Source: Acidobacteriota bacterium (GTDB lineage: Bacteria; Acidobacteriota; Thermoanaerobaculia; UBA5066). From it: a stretch of 39,711 bases of DNA. The stretch spans positions 311 to 40,021 of the forward strand of contig PLZI01000132.1 of NCBI GenBank assembly GCA_003152095.1, given 5' to 3'. Positions within the stretch are counted from its first letter, which is position 1. The number at the start of each line of letters is the position of its first letter. Of this stretch, positions 450-15,143 are shown piece by piece. The notes under the pieces are model-generated. The model saw only the letters and a list, made by a program, of their open reading frames with translations. It made no database searches and was not told the origin of the DNA. A program made the position numbers and the translations under genes.

Positions 450-694
450 GGCCTTCATCCTCCTTCTTCCAGGGCGAACAGGCTGATGAGCGTGTGGGGC
501 ACGGAGGCACTCGGTCGCAAGCAGGTCTCGCCAGAGCCCATAGGCATCGGGTGCCCCTTCCCCCGCAACAATGCACCACACTCGAGCCCGTTTAACCATA
601 GTTAGTTTGATTCACCCCGGCCAGGGTTCGGGGTCGGTCGCTCATGAGCCTGTCTGATGAGGCGGACGATTAGACTCCGGAAAACGGGGTGGCC

Positions 695-1840
695 ATGAAG
701 TTGATTGTTCCAAGAGAAACCAGGGATGGCGAGAAGCGGGTGGCGCTCGTTCCCGAGTCCGTCAAGAAGCTCGTGAAGGCCGGCATTTCCGTGGCCATCG
801 AGCAGGACTCGGGTGCGGGGTCGTTCATTGACGATCGCGCTTACGTCGAGGCCGGTGCCATCGTCGCAACGGATCTCAAGGCATCGCTTTCAGAGGCAGA
901 TCTCGTGTTGAAGGTCAACCCACCCACCCTTGACGAGGTGGACCTGATGCGGCCGGGCGCCATGCTCCTCGTCCCCCTCACGCCCACCCGGAACCTCGAC
1001 CTGGTCCGAAAGCTCCTCGAGCACAAGGTGACGGCGTTTTCCACCGACACTATACCTCGCATCTCCCGGGCCCAGGCCATGGACTCCCTCTCCTCCATGG
1101 CCTCCATCGCCGGCTACAAGGCCGTGGTCATGGCCGCCGATACCCTCCCCAGGTATTTCCCCATGCTCATGACCGCCGCGGGTACGGTGCTGCCCGCTAG
1201 AGTGTTCGTGATCGGAGCCGGGGTCGCGGGGTTGCAGGCCATCGCCACCGCCCGGCGGCTGGGCGCCGTCGTGGAGGCCACCGACACGCGCCCGGCGGTG
1301 AGGACCGAAATCGAGAGCCTGGGAGCCAAGTACGTGGGCGTCGAGGCGGGCGAAGAGGCTCAGGACGCGGGAGGCTACGCGAAAGAGCTGTCCCAGGAGT
1401 TCTACCGCAAGCAGACGGAGCTGATCGCAAGACACTGTGCGGCCGCCGATGTGGTGATCACGACCGCGCTCATCGGCGGCGTCACGGCGCCGAAGCTGAT
1501 CACCGCCGAGATGGTCGACAAAATGAAGCCCGGCTCGGTCATCGTCGACCTCGCCGCCGCGGGGGGCGGGAACTGCACGCTGACGAAGCCCGGCGAGACC
1601 GTGGAGCACAACGGCGTGAAGATCCTCGCCCCTTTGAACCTTCCCTCGGAGGTGGCCTTTCACGGGAGCCTGCTCTACTCGCGCAACCTCACGGCCTTCG
1701 TCCTGGCCTTCTGGAAGAACGGGGTGTTCGCGCTCGACCTATCGGACGACATCCTCAAGGAGGCCACCATCACGCACGACGGCAAGGTGATTCACATCCC
1801 CACCGCACAGGCCCTGGAGAAAGAAGGAGCCCGCCCGTGA
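695..1840 (+). CDS. pntAA: NAD(P) transhydrogenase alpha subunit part 1 (NAD-binding domain I)
   Basis: This soluble subunit binds NAD(H) in the proton-translocating transhydrogenase, which moves hydride between NADH and NADP+ using the proton gradient. The start MKLIVPRETRDGEKRVALVP is the family N-terminus. The Rossmann motif GAGVAGLQAIATARRLGA lies near residue 172, followed by EATDTRP. The segment GSVIVDLAAAGGGNC is the alanine-dehydrogenase/PntAA signature. The length of 381 residues fits the three-subunit (Rhodospirillum-type) split. I start at ATG 695 because family members begin MKI/MKL; an in-frame GTG at 689 adds two residues. The stop overlaps the next start by 4 nt, so translation is coupled to pntAB. 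Confidence 0.95.
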   Translation: MKLIVPRETRDGEKRVALVPESVKKLVKAGISVAIEQDSGAGSFIDDRAYVEAGAIVATDLKASLSEADLVLKVNPPTLDEVDLMRPGAMLLVPLTPTRNLDLVRKLLEHKVTAFSTDTIPRISRAQAMDSLSSMASIAGYKAVVMAADTLPRYFPMLMTAAGTVLPARVFVIGAGVAGLQAIATARRLGAVVEATDTRPAVRTEIESLGAKYVGVEAGEEAQDAGGYAKELSQEFYRKQTELIARHCAAADVVITTALIGGVTAPKLITAEMVDKMKPGSVIVDLAAAGGGNCTLTKPGETVEHNGVKILAPLNLPSEVAFHGSLLYSRNLTAFVLAFWKNGVFALDLSDDILKEATITHDGKVIHIPTAQALEKEGARP

Positions 1841-2133
1841 ACACCGATCTCCTGATCTCGCATCTCTGGGTCTTCCTGCTGGCGACGTTCGTGGGGCTTC
1901 TGGTGATCCGGCGCGTTTCGCCCTTGCTCCACACGCCCCTCATGTCCCTCACCAACGCCATGTCGGCCATCGCGGTGGTGGGCTCCCTCGTCGTGACCGG
2001 GCGCCAGCAATCGACGCTCAGCACGGTCCTCGGCACCGTCGCCGTGACCGCTTCCATGATCAACATCGTCGGCGGCTACCTGATCACCTACCGCATGTTG
2101 TCCATGTTCAGGAAGGGCAAGCAGGCGAAGTGA
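1837..2133 (+). CDS. pntAB: NAD(P) transhydrogenase alpha subunit part 2 (membrane)
   Basis: A 98-residue membrane protein made mainly of three hydrophobic segments (roughly residues 10-26, 38-53 and 64-85). It is the domain II part of the alpha chain, which forms part of the proton channel with PntB. It starts at GTG within the GTGA overlap with pntAA and ends in the TGATG junction with pntB, the gene order expected for split-alpha transhydrogenases. No catalytic residues are expected here. The identification rests on size, hydrophobicity and position between two clear partners. Confidence 0.9.
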   Translation: MNTDLLISHLWVFLLATFVGLLVIRRVSPLLHTPLMSLTNAMSAIAVVGSLVVTGRQQSTLSTVLGTVAVTASMINIVGGYLITYRMLSMFRKGKQAK

Positions 2134-3527
2134 TGGGCGCCGAGTCCTGGATCCAGATCGTCTACGTTCTGTCTGCCCTTTGCTTCATCCTCGCCCTCAA
2201 CTGGTTGAGCGCGGTCCCCACCGCCCGCCGAGGGGTCCTCACGGGCGTCCTCGGCATGGCGCTCGCCGTCGGCGGCACCCTGCTCAACCCCGGGATCGTC
2301 AGCTACACGTGGATCGCCGTCGCTTTCGTGATCGGCTCCGTCATCGGCGTTCCCATGGCCATGATGCCGATGACCGCCGTCCCACAGCGGACGGCCCTCT
2401 CCCACGCTTTCGGCGCGCTGGCCGCGGCCCTCGTCGGCACGGCGGAGTACTTCCTCCGCGCCGGTGGCGCGGAGATGGACCGGTTCACCATGGGCGCCCT
2501 CGCCGTCGAGGTCATCCTCGGGTTTCTCACCTTCACGGCCAGCCTGATGGCGTTCGGCAAGCTGCAGGAGATTCTCCCTCAGCGGCCCATCACGTACAGG
2601 GGACAGAATCTCGTCAACCTCGGGATGCCGGCCGCGGCGGTGGCCCTCGCCGTCTGGCTGGTCATCCACCCCGGGAGCCATGGCCTGTTTCTGCTCATGT
2701 GCGGGTTGGCCCTCGGCTTCGGCGTGCTGCTGATCGTCCCCATCGGCGGCGCCGACATGCCGACGGTCATCTCCCTGCTCAACGCCTACGCCGGGCTCTC
2801 CGCGGCGGCCATGGGCTTCGTGCTCAACAACAAGCTGCTCATCATCGCGGGCTCGCTGGACGGCAGCTCGGGCCTGATCTTGTCCATCATCATGTGCAAG
2901 GCCATGAACCGGTCCTTTTCAAACGTCCTTTTCGGGGCTTTTGGCCAGGTCACGGCCGCGGTGGCGGCGGGCGAGCAGAAGAGTTACCGGAGCGCCAGCG
3001 CCGAAGAGGCGGCCAGCATCCTTTTGAACGCCTCGTCCGTGATGGTCGTCCCCGGCTACGGCATGGCCGCGGCCCAGGCCCAGCACAAGGTGAGGGAGCT
3101 TTACGACCAACTCACCAGACAGGGCGTGAACGTGAAATTCGCCATTCACCCCGTCGCCGGGCGCATGCCGGGCCACATGAACGTCCTCCTGGCCGAAGCG
3201 AACATCCCCTATGACGCCTTGCTGGATCTGGAAGAGGCCAACTCGGAGCTGCCCCAATGCGACGTGGCCCTCGTCATCGGCGCCAACGACGTGACTAATC
3301 CCGCCGCCCGCCACGACAAGGGGAGCCCCATCTACGGCATGCCCATCATCGATACTGACAAGGCCCGCACCGTGATGGTGATCAAACGCAGCATGAACCC
3401 CGGCTTCGCCGGCGTGGACAACGAGCTCTACACCCTCGACCGGACCCTCATGCTGTTCGGAGACGCCAAGGCTTTTGTCGCCGATCTCATCAAGGAAGTC
3501 GACGCCCAGAGCGGCGGGCGGGGCTGA
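2133..3527 (+). CDS. pntB: NAD(P) transhydrogenase beta subunit (membrane plus NADP-binding domain III)
   Basis: A 464-residue protein whose first ~270 residues are a run of hydrophobic helices that form the proton path with PntAB. The C-terminal ~190 residues are the NADP(H)-binding domain III: VPGYGMAAAQAQHKV is the dinucleotide motif, followed by HPVAGRMPGHMNVLLAEA and the GANDVTNPAA segment that contacts NADP. The length matches the family (about 460). ATG 2133 overlaps the pntAB stop as TGATG; a GTG at 2130 would give a 4-nt overlap instead. It is the last gene of the pnt operon. A gene-poor stretch separates it from the convergent redox operon, whose final gene ends at 4301. Confidence 0.95.
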   Translation: MGAESWIQIVYVLSALCFILALNWLSAVPTARRGVLTGVLGMALAVGGTLLNPGIVSYTWIAVAFVIGSVIGVPMAMMPMTAVPQRTALSHAFGALAAALVGTAEYFLRAGGAEMDRFTMGALAVEVILGFLTFTASLMAFGKLQEILPQRPITYRGQNLVNLGMPAAAVALAVWLVIHPGSHGLFLLMCGLALGFGVLLIVPIGGADMPTVISLLNAYAGLSAAAMGFVLNNKLLIIAGSLDGSSGLILSIIMCKAMNRSFSNVLFGAFGQVTAAVAAGEQKSYRSASAEEAASILLNASSVMVVPGYGMAAAQAQHKVRELYDQLTRQGVNVKFAIHPVAGRMPGHMNVLLAEANIPYDALLDLEEANSELPQCDVALVIGANDVTNPAARHDKGSPIYGMPIIDTDKARTVMVIKRSMNPGFAGVDNELYTLDRTLMLFGDAKAFVADLIKEVDAQSGGRG

Positions 3528-4300: not shown

Positions 4301-7300
4301 CTAGACGACGGGCAGCTCCCGGCGGGCCTTCTCGAAGATCTTGTCGAACCAGGCCGCGAAGCGGACCTCAAGGGTGTCGAGCCCGAGGGTGGGCACGGGG
4401 GCAAGCGGCCCTCCCAGCCCGGTGAACGGGACCCTAGGCAGCTTGAGGCCATCCGCGTCCCAGACCGCACCCGCGGAGCCAAGGTCGAGCCCCGCCCAAA
4501 TCGGCACCACCCGTCGGATTTCCGCGGTCACGTCCTGGGCGGACCCGTACTTCATCTTGAACCGGTAGCCGAGCAGGCTGGCGAGCTGGCTGAGGATCTC
4601 CCAGGTCTCCATCCCGCCCGCGGGGGGCACCGCGCGCTCCAGTCGCTGCACGCGGCGCTCGGCGTTGGTCATGGTGCCGCTCGTCTCGGCCGTGCTCGAC
4701 AGCGGCAAGGCCACTGTGGCGCAGGCGGCGGTGGCGGTGAGGAAGAGGTCGCCCACGAGCAGGAAGTCGGCGGCCAGCAGGCCGTCGCACAGGTCCTGCG
4801 GGAACCCGGGGGCGCCCACCGGGTCCTCGCCGAGCACGACGGCGACCCTGATCTTCTTGTCGCGCAGGAGCTGGGCCACGTCCAGGCTGGGCGGGGAAAG
4901 GTCGCGCAGGACCGCCCCCAGCTCCTTCTCCATCTGCTCCAGGGCCTCGCCGCCGGCGGGATCGACGTAGCCGGGCAGCCAGCGCGGGTCGGCGCCCATG
5001 TCGAGCAGCCCCTGGGTGTTCGCCTTCTCGCGCAGGGCGAGCAGCGAGCAGCCCAGGGCCGCAGCCGCCTGGGCGAAGAGCCGCTCGTCGTGGGCCAGCC
5101 GCGAGCCACGGTAGTCCTTGTTGAACAGCATCACCTTGAGGATGGTCTTAGCCAGGATGGCGGCCGCCTCGCGCGAGGCGGCGCGCGCCACCCCAGAGAG
5201 CTTCTCCAGGCGCTCGTCGGAGAGATCGGCCACCGCCTGGGCCAGCTCCGGCCGGTCGTCGAGGGCGCCCGGCCGCAGGGCGACGTAATCCTTCAACAAG
5301 CCGAGGACGGCAAAGGCTTGCCCGCCAGGCAGGCAGCGCAAGTGCAGCTCGGCAAAGCGCGAGGTGCGGTTGTCCTCGGGGCCGACGTAGACGAGGCGGG
5401 CGCCTTTGCGGATGGCCTGCTTGCAGGCGATGTCCACCGCGAAGCTCTCCTCGTCGAGGGCCGCGTTGACGACCAGCAGGGCCTGGGCGTCGACGATGTC
5501 CGCGTAGGAGGCCGTGGACACGACTTCCGGGGCCTGCAGCTCGCGGTTGACGAGGTGGGCCAGCGAGGTCACGTTATGCGTGCGCAAGGCCAGCCGGGCC
5601 AGCTTCTGGGCGAGGTAGATCTCCTCGTTGGTCAGGCGGGGGGAGACGAACACCGCGACCTGGTCGCCGCTGTAGTGGCGGGTAAGCTCCTTGAGCCGCA
5701 TGGCGGAGTAGCGCAGGGCCTCGTCGAGGCTGCTCTCCTGCAGCTCGCGCCCGACGCGCAGCATGGGCCAGCGCAGGCGCTCGGCCGACTGCACGTGGCC
5801 GTAGCCGAAGCGGCCCTTGCGGCAGTGGTTACCGCCGGTGCCCGCGTCGTCAGCCGCACGCGAGACCTGCACCAGGGTGGTGCCGGAGACCTCGTAGCCC
5901 AGCCGGCACCCCGCGCTGCAGTAGGGGCACACCGATTCCACCCGGGTGGTCTTCCAGGGGCCGGGCTTGGTCAGGGTCAGCTTCTCGGAGATGGCCCCCG
6001 TGGGGCAGGTACCGATGCACAGCCCGCAGCTCACGCACTCGGTGTCGAGCAGGGAGTCGCCCAGGGCGGGCTTGACCACGGTGTCGAAGCCGCGGTTGAC
6101 AAAGCCGTAGGCGGCCACCCCCACCAGCTCGCTGCAGATGCGCACGCAGCGGCCGCACAGCACGCACTTGTTGGGGTCGAGCACCAACAGCGGGTGGCGC
6201 CGGTCCACGGAGTGTTCGACGGCCGCGCCCATGAACGTCTGCACGTCGGCCCCGTACTCGGTGGCGTGGCGCCGCAGATCGCAGGTGAAGAGGGCGGTGC
6301 AGCCGCACTCCAGGCAGCGCGCCGTCTCCCGGCGCAGGTCCTCGCGACTGTACCCGGTCTCGACCTCGGCGAAGCTGAGGGCGCGCTCCGCGGGCGGGAG
6401 CACGGGCATGCTCCGCCGCCCCTCGGTGGAGCCTGGGGGCAAGTCCTCGATCTCGACCTTGTGGTACGCGTCCTTGCGGCTGTACACCTCCACCGGCTCG
6501 GGCTCGGCCCGGCCGGTGGCCACGTAGCGGTCGATGGCGTAGGCGGCCTTGCGTCCGGCGGCGATGGCCTCGATGGCGGTGGCCGCCCCCGTGACCACGT
6601 CGCCTCCCGAGAACACTCCGTCCACGGTGGTCTCGAAGGTGCGCTCGTTGACCTCCACGGTCTGCCAGCGGGTGAGGCTCAGCGTTTCGCCCAGGGGCAG
6701 GAAGTTGGGCACCCGCCCGTCCACCAGCTCCTTGACGCGCGTGCCCTGGCCGATGGCGGCGAGCACGAAGTCGCAGTCGATGCGGAACTCGGAGCCGCGA
6801 ATGGGCCTGGGACTGCGGCGGCCGCTCTGGTCTGGCTCGCCCAGCTCCATGCGGATGCACTCCACCCCTGCCACCCGGCCGTTCTCCCCGCACAGCACCC
6901 GAACGGGGGCGACCAGGAAGTCCATCTTCACGCCCTCGTGCTCCGCCTCCACGATCTCCGTCTCGTTGGCGGGCATCTCCTTGCGCGTCCGCCGATAGAG
7001 GATGCGAACTTCGGCGACGCCCAGGCGCAGGGCGGTGCGCGCGCAGTCGACGGCGGTGTTTCCGCCACCCACCACCAGCACCCTGCCGTGGATGTCGATC
7101 CTGCGCTTGAGGCCGAACTGCTTGAGGAAGTCGATGCCGGCCAGCACCCCCGGCGAGTCCTCGTCCTGCACACGCATCTTGGAGCTGTCCCAGGCCCCCA
7201 GCCCCAGGAAGATGGCGTCGTAACCGCCCTGCTTGAGGCTGGCCACCGTGAAGTCGCGCCCGAGCCGGACGTTGGTGGAGAGCTGGACGCCGAGGTCGAG

Positions 7301-8065
7301 GATCTGGTTGATTTCCAGGTCGAGCACGTCCTTGGGCAGACGGTACTCGGGGATGCCGTAGCGCAGCATGCCCCCCGCTTCGGGCTGGGCCTCGAACATC
7401 GAGACCTTGTAGCCGCGCAGGGCGAGGTAGTAGGCGCAGGAGAGCCCCGCCGGGCCCGCCCCCACCACCGCCACCTTCTTGCCGTTGGGAGGGGCGAGGC
7501 TCGGGCGCCAGGGATCCTTGTCACCCAGGTCGAGGTCGGAGAGATAGCGCTTGATGTAGTCGACGCCCACGGCCTCGTCGAGCAGGGTGCGCCGGCAGCC
7601 CTTGACCTCGCAGGGGCGTGTGCACACACGCCCGCACACCGCGGGCAGGGGATTGCGGTCCTTGATGAGAGCGATGGCGTCGCGGTGCTTGTTCAGGGCG
7701 GCCAATGCGATGTAGCCCTGGATGTCCACCCCCGCCGGGCACGCGAGCTGGCAGGGGCCGATGCAGTCCGCGTAGTGGTTGGAGAGCATCAGCTCCAGGG
7801 CTGCCTTGCGCGAGCGCCGGATCTCCGGGTTGGAGGTCTCCACCACCATGCCCGCCGCCACCCTGGTGGAGCAAGCCGGCGCCAGCGTGCGCGCGCCCTG
7901 CACCTTCACCACGCACAAGTAGCAGGAGGCGAAGGGCTCGAGGCGCCCGTCATGGCAGAGGGTCGGGATGGAGGTGATCCCGTTCTCGCGGGCGACCTCC
8001 AGGATCGTCATGCGGTTGTCGGCGATGACCCGTTTGCCGTCGATGTGAAGCTTGACGAGTTCCAC
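4301..8065 (-). CDS. NuoG-like ferredoxin / GltD-like flavoprotein / truncated molybdopterin-oxidoreductase fusion
   Basis: A 1254-residue soluble redox protein. Residues 1-75 are a NuoG-type [2Fe-2S] ferredoxin with Cys37, 48, 51 and 65. Residues 95-530 are a glutamate-synthase-beta-like module: N-terminal Cys cluster (101-157), FAD motif GAGPAG at 202-207, NAD(P) motif GGGNTA at 333-338 and the terminal FAD segment FSGGDVVTGAATAIEA. Residues 625-690 hold two [4Fe-4S] sites (Cys634/637/640/644 and 677/680/683/687). From residue 705 a molybdopterin-oxidoreductase fold begins with Cys713/716/720/748. It stops without the usual C-terminal pterin-binding domain, so like NuoG it probably binds no molybdenum (inference). 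The start is GTG 8065, 4 nt after the nuoF stop. The likely role is the third subunit of a NuoEF-containing NAD(P)/ferredoxin oxidoreductase. The domain set recalls Geobacter SfrA and SfrB in one chain. Confidence 0.85.
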   Translation of the reverse strand: MELVKLHIDGKRVIADNRMTILEVARENGITSIPTLCHDGRLEPFASCYLCVVKVQGARTLAPACSTRVAAGMVVETSNPEIRRSRKAALELMLSNHYADCIGPCQLACPAGVDIQGYIALAALNKHRDAIALIKDRNPLPAVCGRVCTRPCEVKGCRRTLLDEAVGVDYIKRYLSDLDLGDKDPWRPSLAPPNGKKVAVVGAGPAGLSCAYYLALRGYKVSMFEAQPEAGGMLRYGIPEYRLPKDVLDLEINQILDLGVQLSTNVRLGRDFTVASLKQGGYDAIFLGLGAWDSSKMRVQDEDSPGVLAGIDFLKQFGLKRRIDIHGRVLVVGGGNTAVDCARTALRLGVAEVRILYRRTRKEMPANETEIVEAEHEGVKMDFLVAPVRVLCGENGRVAGVECIRMELGEPDQSGRRSPRPIRGSEFRIDCDFVLAAIGQGTRVKELVDGRVPNFLPLGETLSLTRWQTVEVNERTFETTVDGVFSGGDVVTGAATAIEAIAAGRKAAYAIDRYVATGRAEPEPVEVYSRKDAYHKVEIEDLPPGSTEGRRSMPVLPPAERALSFAEVETGYSREDLRRETARCLECGCTALFTCDLRRHATEYGADVQTFMGAAVEHSVDRRHPLLVLDPNKCVLCGRCVRICSELVGVAAYGFVNRGFDTVVKPALGDSLLDTECVSCGLCIGTCPTGAISEKLTLTKPGPWKTTRVESVCPYCSAGCRLGYEVSGTTLVQVSRAADDAGTGGNHCRKGRFGYGHVQSAERLRWPMLRVGRELQESSLDEALRYSAMRLKELTRHYSGDQVAVFVSPRLTNEEIYLAQKLARLALRTHNVTSLAHLVNRELQAPEVVSTASYADIVDAQALLVVNAALDEESFAVDIACKQAIRKGARLVYVGPEDNRTSRFAELHLRCLPGGQAFAVLGLLKDYVALRPGALDDRPELAQAVADLSDERLEKLSGVARAASREAAAILAKTILKVMLFNKDYRGSRLAHDERLFAQAAAALGCSLLALREKANTQGLLDMGADPRWLPGYVDPAGGEALEQMEKELGAVLRDLSPPSLDVAQLLRDKKIRVAVVLGEDPVGAPGFPQDLCDGLLAADFLLVGDLFLTATAACATVALPLSSTAETSGTMTNAERRVQRLERAVPPAGGMETWEILSQLASLLGYRFKMKYGSAQDVTAEIRRVVPIWAGLDLGSAGAVWDADGLKLPRVPFTGLGGPLAPVPTLGLDTLEVRFAAWFDKIFEKARRELPVV

Positions 8066-8069
8066 GGCC

Positions 8070-9833
8070 CTACACTCTCGTGATCGCTTCGAAGCGGCAG
8101 GCCCGGTAACACTCGTCGCAGCGGGTGCACAGGCTGTGGTCGATGACGTGGGGCTTACCCTTCTCACCGGTGATGGCCTTGGCCGCGCAGGCCCGTCCGC
8201 ACACTCCGCAGCCGTTGCACTTCTCGTTGACGGTGTAGGTGAGCAGGGCCTGGCACTGGTGGGCGGGGCACTTGCGGTTGGAGATGTGCGCCTCGTACTC
8301 CGCCCGGAAGTACTTGAGGGTGGTGAGCACCGGGTTTGGTGCGGTCTGGCCCAGGCCGCACAGCGAATTGTTCCTCACCAGGGAGGCCAGGTTCTCCAGC
8401 CTCTCGATATCCCCCTCCTTGCCCTTGCCCTCGGTGATCCGGACGAGGACCTCCAGCATGCGCTTGGTGCCCACCCGGCAGAACGTGCACTTCCCGCAGG
8501 ACTCGCGCTGGGTGAAGTCCAGGAAGAATCGGGCCACGTCCACCATGCAGGTGGTCTCGTCGAGCACCACCAGCCCGCCCGACCCCATGATGGCGCCCGT
8601 CTTGTTGATGGACTCGTAGTCGATGACGGTGTTTTCCAGCTCCGCGGGGATGCAGCCCCCGGAGGGGCCGCCCATCTGTACGGCCTTGAACTTGCGGCCT
8701 TCCTTGATACCCCCGCAGACGTCGTGGACGATCTCCCTGATGGAGATCCCCATTGGGACCTCCACCAGCCCGCCCCGCCGGATCTTGCCGGCCATGGCGA
8801 AGACCTTGGTGCCCTTGCTGTTGGCGGTGCCGAGGCGGTTGAAGGCCTGCGCCCCGTTGAGCACGATCCAGGGCACGTTGGCAAATGTCTCCACGTTGTT
8901 GATGTTGGTTGGGCACTCCCACAGGCCCTTGACCGCGGGGAAGGGCGGCCGCATCCGCGGCATGCCGCGGCGTCCCTCGATCGAGGCGATGAGGGCGGTC
9001 TCCTCGCCGCACACGAAAGCTCCCGCCCCCTCCTTCAGCTCGACGTGGAACTCGAATCCGGTGCCGAAGACGTCGTCACCCAGGAGGCCGCGCGCCTCGG
9101 CCTGGGCGACGGCGATGTTCAGCCGCTCGACGGCCATGGGGTACTCGGCGCGCACGTAGATGTAACCCTGCGTGGAGCCGATGGCGTGGCCCCCGATGGC
9201 CATGCCCTCCAGCACCGAGTGGGGGTCGCTCTCCAGGACCGAGCGATCCATGAAGGCCCCGGGGTCGCCCTCGTCGGCGTTGCAGATCACGTACTTCTGC
9301 TTGCCCGGGGCCAGCCGCGTGAAGCGCCACTTCATCCCGGTGAGGAAGCCCGCCCCCCCGCGCCCTCGCAGCCCCGACTCGATGATCACGTTGATGAGGC
9401 CGTCGGGGTCGTTCTGGTAGAGAACCCTCTTCAAGGCCTGGTACCCGCCCACCTCCAGGTACTCCTCGATCTTCTCCGGGTCGATCACCCCGCAGTTGCG
9501 CAGCACGATGCGCTCCTGGCGGTCGAGGAAGGCCTTCTCCTGGCCCTTGCCGTCGCTGGTCCACACCAGCCACTCCTCGATGGGCTCGCCCTTCCCGACG
9601 TGCTCCTCGAGCAACCGGTCGACTCTATCCGGGGTCATCTGCCCGTACTGCCAGCGCTTCCCGTCGTTCTCGCGCACCTCCACGAGCGGCTCGCGGTAGC
9701 ACATGCCCACGCAGCCGGTCTTCCCCACCTTGCAGCTGCCGTGGAGCGTCCCCGTCCTGGCCAGGATCGCGGCGTAGGTCGCTCCGGCGCCCGCCGCCAC
9801 CCCGCACGTGCCCAGCCCCACAAGGATCCTCAC
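8070..9833 (-). CDS. NADH dehydrogenase (NuoF/HydB-like) flavoprotein subunit
   Basis: A 587-residue NuoF-type protein that oxidises or reduces NAD(H) on FMN and passes electrons to Fe-S clusters. The N-terminal ~100 residues are a thioredoxin-like [2Fe-2S] domain (Cys10, 34, 41, 45). The FMN site GLRGRGGAGFLTGMKW and the NADH site GAGAFVCGEETALI follow, then the [4Fe-4S] motif SCGKCTFCRVGTKRM with a distal Cys. The C-terminus adds two ferredoxin-type clusters (CNGCGVCGRAC and CTRCDECYRAC). This extended form is typical of HydB/HndC subunits in multimeric [FeFe]-hydrogenases and NADP-reducing complexes, not of respiratory complex I. Its start overlaps the nuoE stop by 4 nt. Confidence 0.92.
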   Translation of the reverse strand: MRILVGLGTCGVAAGAGATYAAILARTGTLHGSCKVGKTGCVGMCYREPLVEVRENDGKRWQYGQMTPDRVDRLLEEHVGKGEPIEEWLVWTSDGKGQEKAFLDRQERIVLRNCGVIDPEKIEEYLEVGGYQALKRVLYQNDPDGLINVIIESGLRGRGGAGFLTGMKWRFTRLAPGKQKYVICNADEGDPGAFMDRSVLESDPHSVLEGMAIGGHAIGSTQGYIYVRAEYPMAVERLNIAVAQAEARGLLGDDVFGTGFEFHVELKEGAGAFVCGEETALIASIEGRRGMPRMRPPFPAVKGLWECPTNINNVETFANVPWIVLNGAQAFNRLGTANSKGTKVFAMAGKIRRGGLVEVPMGISIREIVHDVCGGIKEGRKFKAVQMGGPSGGCIPAELENTVIDYESINKTGAIMGSGGLVVLDETTCMVDVARFFLDFTQRESCGKCTFCRVGTKRMLEVLVRITEGKGKEGDIERLENLASLVRNNSLCGLGQTAPNPVLTTLKYFRAEYEAHISNRKCPAHQCQALLTYTVNEKCNGCGVCGRACAAKAITGEKGKPHVIDHSLCTRCDECYRACRFEAITRV

Positions 9834-10339
9834 GAGCCCGCCTTCGTCTTCTGCTCCCGATAGGGCTTGAGCACCTTCCTGAGGTCGGCGGGCTTGAGGT
9901 TGCCGTGGGTGTCCTTGTTGATCATGAGCACCGGGGCCAGGCTGCAGCAGCCCAGACAGGCCACCGTCTCCAGGGTGAACTCGCGGTCCGGGGTGGTCTC
10001 CCCCTCCCCGACCCGCAGCTGGTCCTTCAGGGCCTTGGAGATCCCATCGGCCTGCGCCACGTGGCAGGCCGTGCCGTGGCAGACCTTGATGATGTTGCGG
10101 CCCACGGCGTGCTGCCGGAACTGCGCGTAGAAGGTGGCCACCCCGAAGATCTGCGAGAGGGGCACCCCCGTCTTCCTGTGGATCTCGGCGATCCGCTCGC
10201 GGGAGATGTAGCCGTCCTGGACTTGGAACTTTTGCAGGAGTGGGATCAGGACCCCGCCCGCCCCCTTGTAGTGGAGGTTCTTGAAGTCATACGCGCGTGG
10301 CGCTTCCACGTCGTGGGCTCCCGGCGCCGCGCTAGTCAT
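9830..10339 (-). CDS. NuoE-like [2Fe-2S] thioredoxin-fold subunit
   Basis: A 169-residue NuoE/HydC-like protein, the usual partner of NuoF. The N-terminal helical part (GVLIPLLQKFQVQDGYIS, then ATFYAQF) is the family pattern. The four cluster ligands appear as CHGTAC (with HV after) and CLGCCSLAP. It transfers electrons from the NuoF FMN through a [2Fe-2S] centre. It overlaps the zinc-ribbon gene by 8 nt upstream and nuoF by 4 nt downstream, so the three are translationally coupled. No other complex I genes are present, so this belongs to a soluble oxidoreductase. Confidence 0.93.
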   Translation of the reverse strand: MTSAAPGAHDVEAPRAYDFKNLHYKGAGGVLIPLLQKFQVQDGYISRERIAEIHRKTGVPLSQIFGVATFYAQFRQHAVGRNIIKVCHGTACHVAQADGISKALKDQLRVGEGETTPDREFTLETVACLGCCSLAPVLMINKDTHGNLKPADLRKVLKPYREQKTKAGS

Positions 10340-10733
10340 AGGGCGTCTCGAACATGCGGTTCATCAGGCTCATCATGTCGTCGATGTTGCCGGTGCCCCC
10401 GAGGGCATGGGCCTTGCACCCGCGCCGGGAGCAGAACTCCAGGTAGCCGCCTTTGGCAATGTCGAGCGACGCCATGGCGGCGCCGCAGATTTTGCAGGCC
10501 AGCGGCAGCATCAGGCTGGCCTCGCACTTCGGGCAGCTGAGATCAACGACGTCGCCCTCCTCCAGGGCGAGGTCCGTCTCCACGCCGTAGTCGCCGAAGA
10601 CGGCGCTCAGGGAGATCGCCCCCTGCTGGTGGGTCCGGCGCACGTGGCCGTCGAGATGCACGCGCGCGCCCTCGGTGAGCGCCGCGCCGCACTGGGGACA
10701 GCGCAGCTCCAGCACGAGCATCTGTTTAGTCAT
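10332..10733 (-). CDS. Small zinc-ribbon-type protein of unknown function
   Basis: A 133-residue protein with four pairs of metal-binding-type cysteines: CPQC (about residue 12), CPKC, CKIC and CSRRGC. The pattern suggests two zinc ribbons or rubredoxin-like knuckles. The C-terminal tail (DDMMSLMNRMFETPYD) is Met-rich and acidic. I do not recognise a named family. It overlaps the [FeFe]-hydrogenase-like gene by 8 nt at its start and nuoE by 8 nt at its end, which points to an obligate partner, perhaps an assembly factor or small subunit. That role is inference only. Confidence 0.8.
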   Translation of the reverse strand: MTKQMLVLELRCPQCGAALTEGARVHLDGHVRRTHQQGAISLSAVFGDYGVETDLALEEGDVVDLSCPKCEASLMLPLACKICGAAMASLDIAKGGYLEFCSRRGCKAHALGGTGNIDDMMSLMNRMFETPYD

Positions 10734-12066
10734 GGACTGGTTCCTTCGTGGAGGCCATCGCCTCCTGCAGCCTTTCGAGGCGGACGAACACGCAGTCCTC
10801 CAGCGCGGCCAGGCCGCGCACAACGTCCTCGGCGTGGGCGGCGCAGCTCGGGGCGCCGCACGCCGCACAGTCCTTCGCCGGCAGGTCCGCCATGACCCGC
10901 TCCACCTCGCGCTTGCGTGCCACCGACTCGCGCAGGTTGCGTCCCAGCGGGCGCACCGGACGGGCCTTGAGGTGCTCCTCGAGGTCGAAGAAGTGCTCGC
11001 GCAGCATCGCGCGCACCTTCTCCTCGGGCACCACCGCCCCTTCGCCCGCCTGCCGGCCGTGCCGGCGCACGATGTGCTGCACGGTGCGCCGGGCGGCGTA
11101 GCGGTTCTCCACCGTGAGCTGCCCGCTGATGCAGCCGTCCGGGCAGATGTACGCCTCGATGAAGTCGACGGCCTGAAGCTTGCCCTCCTCGATGTGGTCG
11201 AAGACCCGCAGCACGTCGCGCACGCCGGCCACGGTGATCGTGTTGGCGTTGCGCATGCCCGCGATCTCCCCGCCCGCCATCGCCCAGAGCAGCCCGCGCT
11301 CGCTGATGGGCGGGGGGTTCTCCACCGGCCCGTTGGCCTTGATGGCCTTCAGCAGCGGACCGTAGACCTCGGCGATGGAGAAGGCCCCGTCCAGGTACGA
11401 CGCCTCCAGGGCTTCCGGGTGGTGGATGGACTGCAGCATGGCGCTGCACGGAGTGATGAAGAAGATGCCGATGTCGCCGGGCGCGAGCCCCTTTTCCGCG
11501 ACGAGCCGGCGGCGCAGCAGCTTGGCGGCCAGCTCGCGCGCAGTCTCGATCGGCAGCAGGTTGTCGATCATGTCCGGGTAGCGGAGCTGGATCAGGTGGA
11601 TGATGGCGGGGCAGGTCACCGAGACCTTGGGCCAGGGACCGCGGCACTCCGAGAGGTAGGCGTCGGTGGCGCTCGCGTGCATGTCGCACATGGCGGACAG
11701 GTCGTAGACGTCGTCGAAGCCCAGGCTGCGGAGGGCCTGCAGCACTTGCCCCGGCTCCACGTCCCTGCCGAACTGGGAGTACAGGGTCAGCGTGGGCAGG
11801 GCCACCGTGTACTTGAAGCGCTTGAGGTCCGCGGAGGTGGCGGTCGCCGCGTGCATCGCCCCGTGCCGGCACCAGCGGATGCACTCGCCGCAGTCGATGC
11901 AGAGGTCGGGGTCGGCGACCGCGCACCCGGCCCGCACGCGGATCGCCGCGGTGGGGCAGGCCTTGCAGCAGTCGACGCACCCCACGCAGCGCTGCGGGTC
12001 GAAGACGATCGAATGCTCGCTCCTCGGGCGCTCGCCGTCCGCGACGTCAGGCAAGTCGCACCGCAT
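10726..12066 (-). CDS. [FeFe]-hydrogenase-like protein with altered H-cluster loops
   Basis: A 446-residue protein. Residues 20-70 carry two ferredoxin clusters (Cys27/30/33 or 34/37 and 56/59/62/66). Residues 85-330 align with the hydrogenase large-subunit core, but the signature loops differ. L1 is VTCPAI (Cys152) rather than TSCCPGW. L2 is TPCSAM (Cys207) rather than MPCTAKK. L3 is CPDGCISGQ (Cys308, Cys312) rather than MACPGGCxxGGGQP. The four cluster-ligand cysteines are kept, but the L1 cysteine thought to relay protons and the L2 lysine are not. A C-terminal Fe-S domain (CAACGAPSC, about residue 416) is typical of HsfB-like sensory or regulatory homologues. The context with DRTGG and RsbW-like proteins fits that group. 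No hydEFG maturation genes are in the window. Confidence 0.85.
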   Translation of the reverse strand: MRCDLPDVADGERPRSEHSIVFDPQRCVGCVDCCKACPTAAIRVRAGCAVADPDLCIDCGECIRWCRHGAMHAATATSADLKRFKYTVALPTLTLYSQFGRDVEPGQVLQALRSLGFDDVYDLSAMCDMHASATDAYLSECRGPWPKVSVTCPAIIHLIQLRYPDMIDNLLPIETARELAAKLLRRRLVAEKGLAPGDIGIFFITPCSAMLQSIHHPEALEASYLDGAFSIAEVYGPLLKAIKANGPVENPPPISERGLLWAMAGGEIAGMRNANTITVAGVRDVLRVFDHIEEGKLQAVDFIEAYICPDGCISGQLTVENRYAARRTVQHIVRRHGRQAGEGAVVPEEKVRAMLREHFFDLEEHLKARPVRPLGRNLRESVARKREVERVMADLPAKDCAACGAPSCAAHAEDVVRGLAALEDCVFVRLERLQEAMASTKEPVHD

Positions 12067-12466
12067 ACGTGAGCGTCGTGCCGACCCCGGGGGTCGACTC
12101 CAGCCGGAACTCGTCCGCGCTGTTCTTGATGTTCGGCAGGCCGAGGCCCGCTCCGAAGCCGCGGGCGCGCATCTCCGGTGTGGCGGTGGACCAGCCCGGG
12201 GTCATGGCCAGCTCGATGTCTGGGATCCCCCGGCCGCGGTCCGCCACCACCACCCGCACCGCCTCGGGCAGCACCTGGAAGCTCAGGTCCGCCTCGTCGG
12301 CGTGCATGATGACGTTCATTTCCGCCTCGAAGTTGGCGATCGAGAGCCGGCGGATGAGGTCCGGCCGGATCCCCAGGTCCTTGCAGATGGACTTGATGCG
12401 CGTGGCCACCTCTCCCCCGTGCTCGAAGTCGCCCCCGCGGATCTGGAAGGTCTCGGCATAGAGCAC
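12047..12466 (-). CDS. RsbW-like anti-sigma/histidine-kinase-type ATPase
   Basis: A 139-residue GHKL-fold ATP-binding protein. The N-box lies at ANFEAEMNVIMHA, the G1 box at DRGRGIPD and the G2 box at GFGAGLGLPNIK. There is no dimerisation/phosphoacceptor domain, so it resembles anti-sigma-factor Ser/Thr kinases such as RsbW/SpoIIAB. I start at GTG 12466, 5 nt after the previous stop. The end overlaps the hydrogenase-like gene by 20 nt. Genes of this type recur in operons of anaerobic [FeFe]-hydrogenase homologues. A regulatory role sensing redox state is an inference. Confidence 0.85.
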   Translation of the reverse strand: MLYAETFQIRGGDFEHGGEVATRIKSICKDLGIRPDLIRRLSIANFEAEMNVIMHADEADLSFQVLPEAVRVVVADRGRGIPDIELAMTPGWSTATPEMRARGFGAGLGLPNIKNSADEFRLESTPGVGTTLTYAVRLA

Positions 12467-12471
12467 CTCGC

Positions 12472-12840
12472 TCAGGGCGCGGTCCCCTGTTGCTTGGTGG
12501 AGGCGGGCAGGCCGCCCCGGTGCAGGCGGCCGCAGGCCTCGTACATGGTCAGGGTGGTGGACAGCAGGGGCAGGCCGCGCGCGCGGGCCAGGGCCAGCAC
12601 CTGCGCGTCGGGCCGCTTGTCGTTGACGTAGAGGATGGCCTGCGCGTCGACCACCTCGGCGGTGTGCACCGACTGCAAGTTGGTCAACCCGGTGATGAGC
12701 AGGGGCCCGTGCCCGCAGAAGGCCAGCACCTCGCTCATGAGGTCGGCGGCGAAGCAGCCAGCGATCTCCCGGCCGCCGGCCTGGTCGAGGGCCAGCAGGT
12801 CCGTGCAGCCGAGAAGCGTGACGATCTCCGCGAGAAGCAT
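12472..12840 (-). CDS. DRTGG-fold protein (second copy)
   Basis: A 122-residue protein resembling DRTGG-domain proteins, the small alpha/beta fold also found with CBS domains and phosphotransacetylase N-termini. The pattern is IAGCFAADLMSEVLAFCGHG followed by LLITGLTNLQSVHTAEVVDA. It aligns in outline with the 109-residue neighbour at 12874, so the two are probably ancient duplicates. The ATG at 12840 is preceded by a GGTGAGG-like ribosome site. Such proteins accompany sensory hydrogenase homologues; their ligand is unknown, though nucleotide binding is often proposed. Confidence 0.7.
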   Translation of the reverse strand: MLLAEIVTLLGCTDLLALDQAGGREIAGCFAADLMSEVLAFCGHGPLLITGLTNLQSVHTAEVVDAQAILYVNDKRPDAQVLALARARGLPLLSTTLTMYEACGRLHRGGLPASTKQQGTAP

Positions 12841-12873: not shown

Positions 12874-13203
12874 CTAGCGAATGCCGGCCTCATACAGCTT
12901 CGTGGCCATTTGCCAGCGATTCAGGGCCGTGGTGAACACCGTGATCTCGGCCTTCTCCGCCATCTTCACCACGTCGTCGGCGAGGGCCTTGCCCTGGGTG
13001 ATGACGATGGCGCAGGTGTCGACCAGGTTGGCGGCGGCGATCACGTTGGCGTGCGCCTGCGCGGTGACCAGTAGGTCGCCCGCCTTGGCGTTGGCGATCA
13101 CGTCGCTGACCATGTCCGATATGTAGACGCCCGTCACGTCCCGATCGAAGACCTTGGTGGCCGCCTTGAGCTCGAGCCGCTCCGCGAGTTCCTGAATCTT
13201 CAT
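12874..13203 (-). CDS. DRTGG-domain protein
   Basis: A 109-residue stand-alone DRTGG protein. The core reads VTGVYISDMVSDVIANAKAG, then LLVTAQAHANVIAAANLVDT and AIVITQGK, which fits the family well. The ATG at 13203 has AGGAG 6 nt upstream. It sits 10 nt after the stop of the unknown gene upstream and 33 nt before the second DRTGG-like gene. In many anaerobes such proteins are encoded beside RsbW-like ATPases and HsfB-type hydrogenase homologues, the same neighbours seen here. The biochemical role is not established. Confidence 0.82.
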   Translation of the reverse strand: MKIQELAERLELKAATKVFDRDVTGVYISDMVSDVIANAKAGDLLVTAQAHANVIAAANLVDTCAIVITQGKALADDVVKMAEKAEITVFTTALNRWQMATKLYEAGIR

Positions 13204-13213
13204 CCTGTGCTCC

Positions 13214-13816
13214 TCATTCCATGGACGTGAGGCCGAAGTCGACCGCGATCTGCTGGTAGGTGATCTTCCGGTGGAGGCCGAAGAAGTCGGGCAGGATCAG
13301 CACCTTCTTCTGGGGACTGGTCAGGCGCTCGTTGAAGAGCGCGTTGAGGATCCGGACCTTCTCAAGGGGCATGGGCGCATGGCCCTCCTCGCCCTCGGTG
13401 GTGATCGCCACGTAGAGCGAGACGCGCTGGTCGTGGGCCAGGTCGCCCATCTGGTAGACGGTGCTGTCCTTGGCGCAGCAGGCGTAGTACAGGAGCCCCG
13501 CCAGCTCGCCGAAGGGCACCACCTGGCCGGTCTGGGTGTCGCGGACGTCGAACTGGAAGGTCTGGGCCGCCTCCTGGGGCTTCCAGAACCGATTGCCCTC
13601 GCGGTACTCCTCCAAGGGCGGGGTCCGCTCTGCCACGAAGTAGCAGCGCCGGGCGAGAGTGTGGTTCTCCAGCTCGATCATCAGGTAGCCTGGCCGCACA
13701 TTGACCATCTCGTAGCGCCGGTCACGCTTAGCGGTCCTCTTTAGCGGCCTCACGACGCTCTCCTGCAGCAAGGATCGGGTAAGCTGGAACCCGGTGCAAT
13801 GAAACGTTCGCATCAT
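13214..13816 (-). CDS. Conserved-looking protein of unknown function, first gene of the redox operon
   Basis: A frame of up to 200 residues that I do not recognise. The N-terminal third is basic (RPLKRTAKRDRRYEM). The rest is mixed alpha/beta with no Cys motif, signal peptide or membrane segment; FGLHRKITYQQIAVDFGL near the C-terminus could be a helix-turn-helix-like stretch. The start is uncertain: ATG 13816 has no clear ribosome site, and an internal ATG at 13711 (MVNVRPGYLMIELENH) is an alternative giving 165 residues. It lies 10 nt upstream of the DRTGG gene, so it is probably cotranscribed. Confidence 0.6.
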   Translation of the reverse strand: MMRTFHCTGFQLTRSLLQESVVRPLKRTAKRDRRYEMVNVRPGYLMIELENHTLARRCYFVAERTPPLEEYREGNRFWKPQEAAQTFQFDVRDTQTGQVVPFGELAGLLYYACCAKDSTVYQMGDLAHDQRVSLYVAITTEGEEGHAPMPLEKVRILNALFNERLTSPQKKVLILPDFFGLHRKITYQQIAVDFGLTSME

Positions 13817-14194: not shown

Positions 14195-14488
14195 ATGGGC
14201 TCAGAAAGGTTGGCTGTCATGGAGGAGTTTTCTCGGAAGGCGGATGGTCGGCGGGTCTTTTCGGTGGCGTTCAAGCGGGAGACGGTGGCTCGGATCACGT
14301 CGGGTGAGAAGACCCTTGCCGAGCTCTCGCGAGAGCTCGGCATTTCGCCGAGCGTCGTTCGAAACTGGATGCGCCTGGTGGAGCGTGGCGGGACGACCGC
14401 GGTGGCGGCTGGCGAACCAGATCCTCTCCGTGACCAAGACGCGGGCTTCGTACGGCTACCGGCGCACGCACCGGCTCGTCAATCGTGA
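14195..14488 (+). pseudogene. IS3 transposase OrfA, truncated
   Basis: The first ~70 residues are a transposase_8 helix-turn-helix domain: FSVAFKRETVARITSGEKTL, then AELSRELGISPSVVRNWMRL. After about residue 70 (TTAVAAG) the expected leucine-zipper segment of OrfA is missing. The frame instead reads out-of-frame OrfB sequence until a stop at 14488. The start may be ATG 14195 or 14219. Only the DNA-binding part of OrfA remains. Confidence 0.8.
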
Positions 14489-15143
14489 GCGGGAGGCCAG
14501 CGGGGAGACGCCCTACAACCGCAAGAGAATCCGGCGTGTCATGCGGATCGCCGGCCTGATGCTTCCGGGGAAGAAGAGACATCGTTTCGATCGGCCTCAT
14601 ACCGGGAAAGTCGAGATGCCCATCTCCAACCAGCGTTGGTGCTCCGACGGATTCAACATCCCCTGCTGGAACGGAGACGTCGTGAGGGTCGCCTTCGCCC
14701 TCGACTGCCACGACCGCGAGGCTCTCGGGCACGTGGCCCGCGCCCGGGATCTTCGCGGCGAGGACATCAGGCTTCTGCTCGACGAGGCCCTCTGGTCCCG
14801 GTTCGGCGAACGCACTCTCACGGCTCCCGTCGAGATCCAGTGGCTCTCGGACAACGGCGGCCCCTACACTTCGACGGACACGGTCCTCTACGCCCAGACT
14901 CTCGGTTTCCGCCCGGTGACGACCCCGGCCTATAGCCCCGAGTCCAACGGCATGGCCGAGGCCTTCGTGAACACCGTCAAGCGTGACTACGTCCACGGCG
15001 CCGATCTCTCCGACGGGGAAACGGTCATCCGGCAGCTTCCCAGATGGATCGACGACTACAACAGAATCGCTCCCCACTCTTCCCTCGCAATGCGTTCCCC
15101 AAAGGAGTGTCGTGCCCTCAACCCTCAGATTTCATGTGTCTAG
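14406..15143 (+). pseudogene. IS3 transposase OrfB, N-terminally truncated
   Basis: The frame from about 14406 encodes the OrfB body starting at ANQILSVTKTRASYGYRRTH, followed by the rve integrase core. Candidate DDE residues are present: the Asp in RWCSDGF, the Asp in LSDNGGPYTS and the Glu in NGMAEAFVNTVKRDY. The N-terminal HTH_21 region normally upstream (about 50-60 residues) is gone. No start codon with a ribosome site is visible at the junction. Family resemblance is to IS2-like IS3 elements. Confidence 0.8.

Follow-up and report, generated by a model that had tools for sequence, protein, structure and literature searches.

Bifurcating Bfu enzymes are defined by a BfuBC core (PMC9304861), and the closest described relatives of the system considered here are the Stn/Nfn transhydrogenases of Sporomusa ovata, Caldicellulosiruptor saccharolyticus and Thermococcus sibiricus, with a large fusion subunit named StnC or NfnA. 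Activity has been reported for StnABC of S. ovata and NfnABC of T. sibiricus (PMC7483475, PMC9304861), as has an iron content of about 42 Fe for the S. ovata enzyme, and mutations back both the electron path and an FdhF-like domain that is catalytically inactive and required for assembly (PMC10482914). We analyzed a 39,711-nucleotide stretch (hereafter, the window) of contig PLZI01000132.1 from an Acidobacteriota bacterium, in which the gene at 4301-8065 encodes, with a probability that we put at about 0.92, the StnC/NfnA (BfuA) subunit of an NADH:NADP+ transhydrogenase of the Stn/Nfn-Bfu type, which bifurcates electrons and depends on ferredoxin, the two upstream genes of the operon supplying StnB and StnA. 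The fusion architecture has already been characterized as StnC/NfnA in Nfn-Bfu transhydrogenases with solved structures, a precedent missed by an earlier sequence-only reading of the same DNA (PMC7483475, PMC9304861, PMC10482914), and the window protein adds a well-preserved member from a bacterial group that has been little studied. What looks new is modest and lies in a new clade and, as the more unusual feature, in a hydrogenase-like sensor cassette ahead of the operon, not in the fusion itself.

The StnC-type protein and its partner subunits

The 1254 residues are read from a single minus-strand frame that starts with a GTG at 8065 and has no internal stop; close relatives start at the same position, and an upstream GTG at 8167 would yield 1288 residues. 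Pfam matches far beyond chance follow one another along the chain, namely Fer2_4 (residues 4-79), Fer4_20, the GltD N-terminal Fe-S domain (103-178), Pyr_redox_2 (196-504), a double [4Fe-4S] domain (633-691), Molybdop_Fe4S4 (707-759) and Molybdopterin (763-909 and a second stretch), with no Pfam match to Molydop_binding anywhere in the protein. The sequence-only reading had proposed just such a fusion, leaving the strand unstated, and its domains are borne out, including the [2Fe-2S] site, the GltD-type cysteine cluster, both dinucleotide-binding motifs and the double [4Fe-4S] site. Its cluster inventory was correct in what it listed and incomplete, having overlooked the CxxCxCx5C motif and the [4Fe-4S] cysteines of the molybdopterin fold (Table 1). 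With these included, the set of BfuA cluster cysteines known from StnC, corresponding to one [2Fe-2S] and six [4Fe-4S] clusters, is complete.

Among PDB chains, the highest-scoring sequence matches are 9bov_A (839 bits), 8oh5_C, which is StnC (751 bits), and 9n5u_A (648 bits). A fold search was run with an AlphaFold model of residues 96-1254, the first [2Fe-2S] domain being omitted for length, and the same entries, C. saccharolyticus NfnABC, S. ovata StnABC and T. sibiricus NfnABC, occupied ranks 1-4. The model is good inside domains (mean predicted local distance difference test score, pLDDT, 81), and single-domain matches are close (NfnI, 2.7 Å; formate dehydrogenase H, FDH-H, 2.8 Å); the low global template modeling (TM) scores against StnC/NfnA structures probably reflect domain placement, since the model does not fix the arrangement.

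When mapped to S. ovata StnC (PDB 8oh5/8oh9; PMC7483475, PMC10482914), with 44% identity over the compared part, the window protein retains the domain order, all cluster cysteines, Lys170 (K172 here), Arg239 (R242) and the dead FDH-like domain, along with the StnA-StnB partners. Family alignments comprised 72 rows for the cluster, Lys and Arg positions, which show the same residue in 71-72 of 72, and 37 rows for the FAD/NADPH (flavin adenine dinucleotide/NADPH) glycine motifs GxGPxG and GGGNTA and the YRR motif, which are likewise conserved. K172, at the cluster near the FAD, is kept in every one of the 72 rows; its counterpart K170 is reported to be strictly conserved among StnC proteins, NfnB having Glu instead (PMC10482914). 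The window protein differs from S. ovata StnC in being about 80 residues longer, in having Ile in place of C114, in coming from another phylum and in the sensor/kinase cassette ahead of its operon. C. saccharolyticus NfnA (PDB 9bov/9bp5), whose complex gives the best PDB match for the StnC-type and StnB-type subunits alike, is set apart by sequence distance and by a Cys at the C114 position. T. sibiricus NfnA (PDB 9n5u/9n5v; PMC9304861), for which NADPH-linked bifurcation has been shown, shares the [2Fe-2S], GltD and ferredoxin core, but has only 963 amino acids, with a shorter C-terminal part, and lacks the cysteines of the second dicluster site. Kinship to the characterized complexes is plain from these comparisons.

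The StnB-type protein has full-length matches to 9bov_B (833 bits) and 8oh5_B (816 bits), whereas FDH beta subunits (at most about 420 bits) and NuoF-type chains (387 bits) match it with lower scores and without its C-terminal part, NuoF over the core only. The residues of the NADH/FMN (flavin mononucleotide), ferredoxin and Zn sites are intact in the adjacent StnB and StnA genes, and the order StnA-StnB-StnC is retained in relatives wherever the upstream sequence suffices. Because the StnC ligands with the K170 and R239 equivalents and the NADH/FMN site of StnB/StnA are all kept, the sequence-only reading was right to see two separate pyridine nucleotide sites in one complex; the GltD nucleotide sites show no degeneration, and the NADH site of the adjacent NuoF-type protein is intact.

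Table 1. Features of the stn locus and its surroundings in the window
Feature	Position	Strand	Residues and remarks
StnC/NfnA-type subunit (Nfn-Bfu 'BfuA'), 1254 amino acids	4301..8065	minus	
[2Fe-2S] ferredoxin domain	7829..8056	minus	C37, C48, C51, C65
GltD-type Fe-S region	7532..7777	minus	H97, C101, C105, C109, C148, C152, C157, K172 (= S. ovata K170), I115 (S. ovata C114)
FAD/NADPH module	6506..7480	minus	GAGPAG at 202, R242 (= S. ovata R239), GGGNTA at 333, YRR at 357
CxxCxCx5C cluster motif (residues 584-595)	6281..6316	minus	C584, C587, C589, C595
2x[4Fe-4S] ferredoxin domain	5993..6166	minus	C634, C637, C640, C644, C677, C680, C683, C687
Molybdopterin-fold [4Fe-4S] site	5822..5929	minus	C713, C716, C720, C748
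FDH-like fold without catalytic Sec/Cys (V839) or His (N840)	4484..5779	minus	FDH similarity ends at about residue 1194
StnB/HydB-type subunit (BfuB)	8070..9833	minus	N-terminal thioredoxin-like, FMN/NADH domain, NADH_4Fe-4S, Zn site H516, C522, C527, C-terminal 2x[4Fe-4S]
StnA/NuoE-type subunit (BfuC)	9830..10339	minus	[2Fe-2S] Cys 87, 92, 128, 132
133-amino-acid zinc-ribbon-like conserved protein	10332..10733	minus	between sensor and StnA genes
[FeFe]-hydrogenase-fold protein, putative sensor	10726..12066	minus	2x[4Fe-4S], Fe_hyd_lg_C, C152, C207, C308, C312, C-terminal FeS domain
HATPase (anti-sigma/serine-kinase type)	12047..12466	minus	
DRTGG-domain protein	12472..12840	minus	
DRTGG-domain protein	12874..13203	minus	
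Conserved 200-amino-acid protein, no known family	13214..13816	minus	heads cassette
PntAA-PntAB-PntB proton-translocating transhydrogenase genes	689-3527	plus	convergent with stn operon

Proposed electron route and alternative readings

By analogy with the characterized complexes, NADPH would reduce the FAD of the GltD module, from which single electrons would travel through the clusters of the GltD part, the one near the FAD being Lys-ligated, and onward via the N-terminal [2Fe-2S] and ferredoxin-like clusters into StnB. In that subunit, one FMN and the clusters surrounding it, those of StnB and the [2Fe-2S] of StnA, would split the electrons, one branch leading to NAD+ and the other to ferredoxin via the C-terminal double [4Fe-4S] domain of StnB. 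The complex should be reversible, making NADPH from NADH and reduced ferredoxin when this is favorable. For the window clade, the occupancy of the cofactor sites, the route of the electrons, bifurcation and the direction in vivo are inferred from homologues. By homology, the FAD would be a non-bifurcating entry point and the FMN in StnAB the probable site of bifurcation. NfnB (NfnL) of the Pyrococcus and Thermotoga NfnAB enzymes (5jca, 4ylf) has a GltD-like FAD/NADPH domain of about 40% identity, and the sequence-only reading had drawn on it for comparison. As a guide to the site of bifurcation, this comparison would mislead, because the GltD FAD of StnC is reported not to be the bifurcating flavin (PMC10482914). 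In NfnB, a stand-alone chain without a NuoG/FDH-like part, the FAD does bifurcate and Glu stands where StnC has Lys (PMC10482914), whereas the window protein is a 1254-residue fusion with K172; an NfnB-type bifurcating FAD is disfavored by this lysine and by the same study.

The C-terminal part resembles FDH over about 490 residues (7qv7_S, 190 bits) and keeps the cysteines of its own [4Fe-4S] cluster, features that would also be expected if it were an active pterin enzyme and the whole protein an NADPH/NADH-linked formate dehydrogenase. However, the catalytic selenocysteine (Sec140) of Escherichia coli FdhF and the Cys of Rhodobacter capsulatus FDH align with V839, the following His aligns with N840, and the similarity stops near residue 1194, ahead of the missing C-terminal pterin-binding domain. 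The site is lost likewise in the relatives inspected, and the corresponding domain of StnC is reported to be inactive (PMC10482914). We therefore reject an active formate dehydrogenase, the chance of which is close to nil; the cofactor-less fold described by the sequence-only reading stands, no intact pterin site with Cys or Sec having been found, and the domain is best seen as a dead catalytic fold presumably kept for assembly and stability. A separate 896-amino-acid FDH-alpha-like protein at locus L002 (own genome, C119) has Gly at the catalytic Sec/Cys position (NNVDCCVRVGHAPS) and, for this reason, may be inactive or unusual.

Several points weigh against a bifurcating transhydrogenase. 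The AlphaFold model leaves the domain arrangement unfixed (predicted TM score, pTM, 0.58) and renders residues 590-703 poorly. S. ovata C114, a tuning residue of the cluster near the FAD, corresponds to I115, so that redox tuning may differ; the position is V, A or I in nearly all relatives, with Cys in 2 of 72 rows, and it has been described as not strictly conserved, with Val and Ile variants listed (PMC10482914). Enzymes of this kind have been described from anaerobes, and a host with haem-copper oxidases and PntAB is an unusual setting for one. The lack of a Cys114 equivalent would suit a simple NADPH:NAD+ (or NAD(P)H:acceptor) oxidoreductase that does not bifurcate, similar to SfrAB or NuoEFG and lacking a ferredoxin partner; so would a host that probably respires oxygen, and so would the NCBIfam SfrB-like model PRK12814, which spans residues 37-681 of the 1288-residue frame (643 bits, below its cut-off). 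Geobacter SfrB and SfrA do resemble, respectively, the [2Fe-2S], GltD and 4Fe-4S half and the molybdopterin-fold half of the fusion (PRK12814; PMC7483475), but as two separate polypeptides. Such an enzyme is nevertheless improbable here, given that clusters B2-B5 are missing from non-bifurcating homologues (PMC9304861) and that four POR-family oxidoreductase genes in the genome could provide reduced ferredoxin.

The distal dicluster [4Fe-4S] and the molybdopterin-type [4Fe-4S] could also form a live side branch through which electrons leave for an additional partner, such as the hydrogenase-fold sensor encoded upstream. In favor of this, 71 of 72 relatives retain the cysteines of the branch, and the operon of the window clade has kept the sensor gene; yet the cysteines are also present in relatives that lack the sensor, the C1 and C2 clusters of S. 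ovata have been assigned to assembly (PMC10482914), and T. sibiricus NfnA is functional without the C2 ligands (PMC9304861). We regard a live exit as slightly less probable still than a non-bifurcating enzyme, and a Stn/Nfn-Bfu transhydrogenase remains the preferred reading.

A putative hydrogenase-fold sensor cassette ahead of the operon

Five genes, encoding the hydrogenase-fold protein, the HATPase, two DRTGG-domain proteins and the 200-amino-acid protein, occur together at the head of the operon in 12 of the 14 clade loci with sufficient upstream sequence (L009, L011, L013 and L015-L023). Among the loci of relatives searched, the cassette was not found in L084 and L087, nor in the groups of about 40% identity. 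The 133-amino-acid protein encoded between the sensor and StnA contains several CxxC motifs and is conserved in L009 and L021, with no Pfam family above the cut-off. An IS3-type transposase-like gene (rve, HTH_21; 14244-15143, plus strand) lies just upstream of the cassette.

The hydrogenase-fold protein keeps Cys at the four H-cluster positions; as read from its sequence, it has Thr in place of the proton-transfer Cys of the TSCCP motif and has lost the L2 Lys. The window genome, which is 99.28% complete, contains neither HydG nor any further Fe_hyd_lg_C or [FeFe]-hydrogenase gene. HydG is above the cut-off in 6 of 15 clade genomes, and a strong HydA match (>280 bits) occurs in exactly the same six; in the other nine, HydG is not above the cut-off and HydA matches are only weak and sensor-like, with bin incompleteness as a caveat. 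Assignment of the StnAB (NuoEF-type) genes to a hydrogenase was rejected, the sole Fe_hyd_lg_C gene of the window genome being weak and sensor-like and HydG not having been found there.

Sensory hydrogenases and kinases have been found upstream of bifurcating hydABC genes (PMC3561251), and this type of cassette is therefore already known in that setting. In the literature searched, we found no description of one attached to a transhydrogenase and nothing direct on DRTGG cassettes. Tentatively, and with more doubt than confidence, we suggest that the transhydrogenase of this clade may be under the control of a hydrogenase-fold protein that has lost the ability to hold a complete H-cluster, a reading prompted by the lack of HydG and of another [FeFe]-hydrogenase gene in the window genome. 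Such a protein might sense the ferredoxin/NAD(P)H state via its [4Fe-4S] clusters and signal via the HATPase and DRTGG proteins, a hydrogen sensor turned redox sensor in oxygen-respiring bacteria.

Clade and host physiology

In a tree of the 72 StnC rows, the window protein falls within a fully supported clade of 16 rows from genome bins labeled Acidobacteriota, Eisenbacteria, Latescibacterota, Fibrobacterota and Myxococcota, membership being given by labels of uncultured genomes that may be wrong. The clade is separate from the Bacteroidota, Ignavibacteriota and Aminicenantes groups and from S. ovata and Caldicellulosiruptor; the tree does not resolve the deep branching. The full-length gene is patchy in the window's own order (3 of 19 genomes) and was found in none of the three other genomes of the same genus. 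A StnC fragment with 95% identity (L010, JADGOP010000379.1) comes from a bin labeled Actinomycetota that is probably mislabeled or mixed.

COX1, the haem-copper oxidase gene, is present in 12 of 15 clade genomes and PntB in 5; the window genome has two haem-copper oxidase genes and PntAB in addition to its POR-family genes. A functional link based on the adjacency of PntAB was rejected as a conserved feature, PntAB not being beside Stn in the loci of close relatives and occurring in no more than 5 of 15 of the genomes. The coexistence of the two transhydrogenases is notable because anaerobes are reported to have neither PntAB nor UdhA (PMC10482914), and it is silent on the direction of flow. 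Elsewhere in the window, 16864-39503 encodes acyl-CoA dehydrogenases, 3-hydroxyacyl-CoA dehydrogenases and thiolases of fatty-acid oxidation, as well as isocitrate/isopropylmalate dehydrogenase, a PEP (phosphoenolpyruvate)-mutase/ICL (isocitrate lyase)-family enzyme and aconitase, with an AdhE-type aldehyde/alcohol dehydrogenase at 31372-34011.

Strict anaerobes have been the main source of described Stn/Nfn-Bfu transhydrogenases; with this locus, the enzymes reach into a well-supported clade whose members mostly have haem-copper oxidases. Why cells that respire should retain a transhydrogenase coupled to ferredoxin, in some cases next to one driven by protons, becomes a question open to experiment, as does the role of hydrogenase-fold sensors in the absence of H-cluster maturation.

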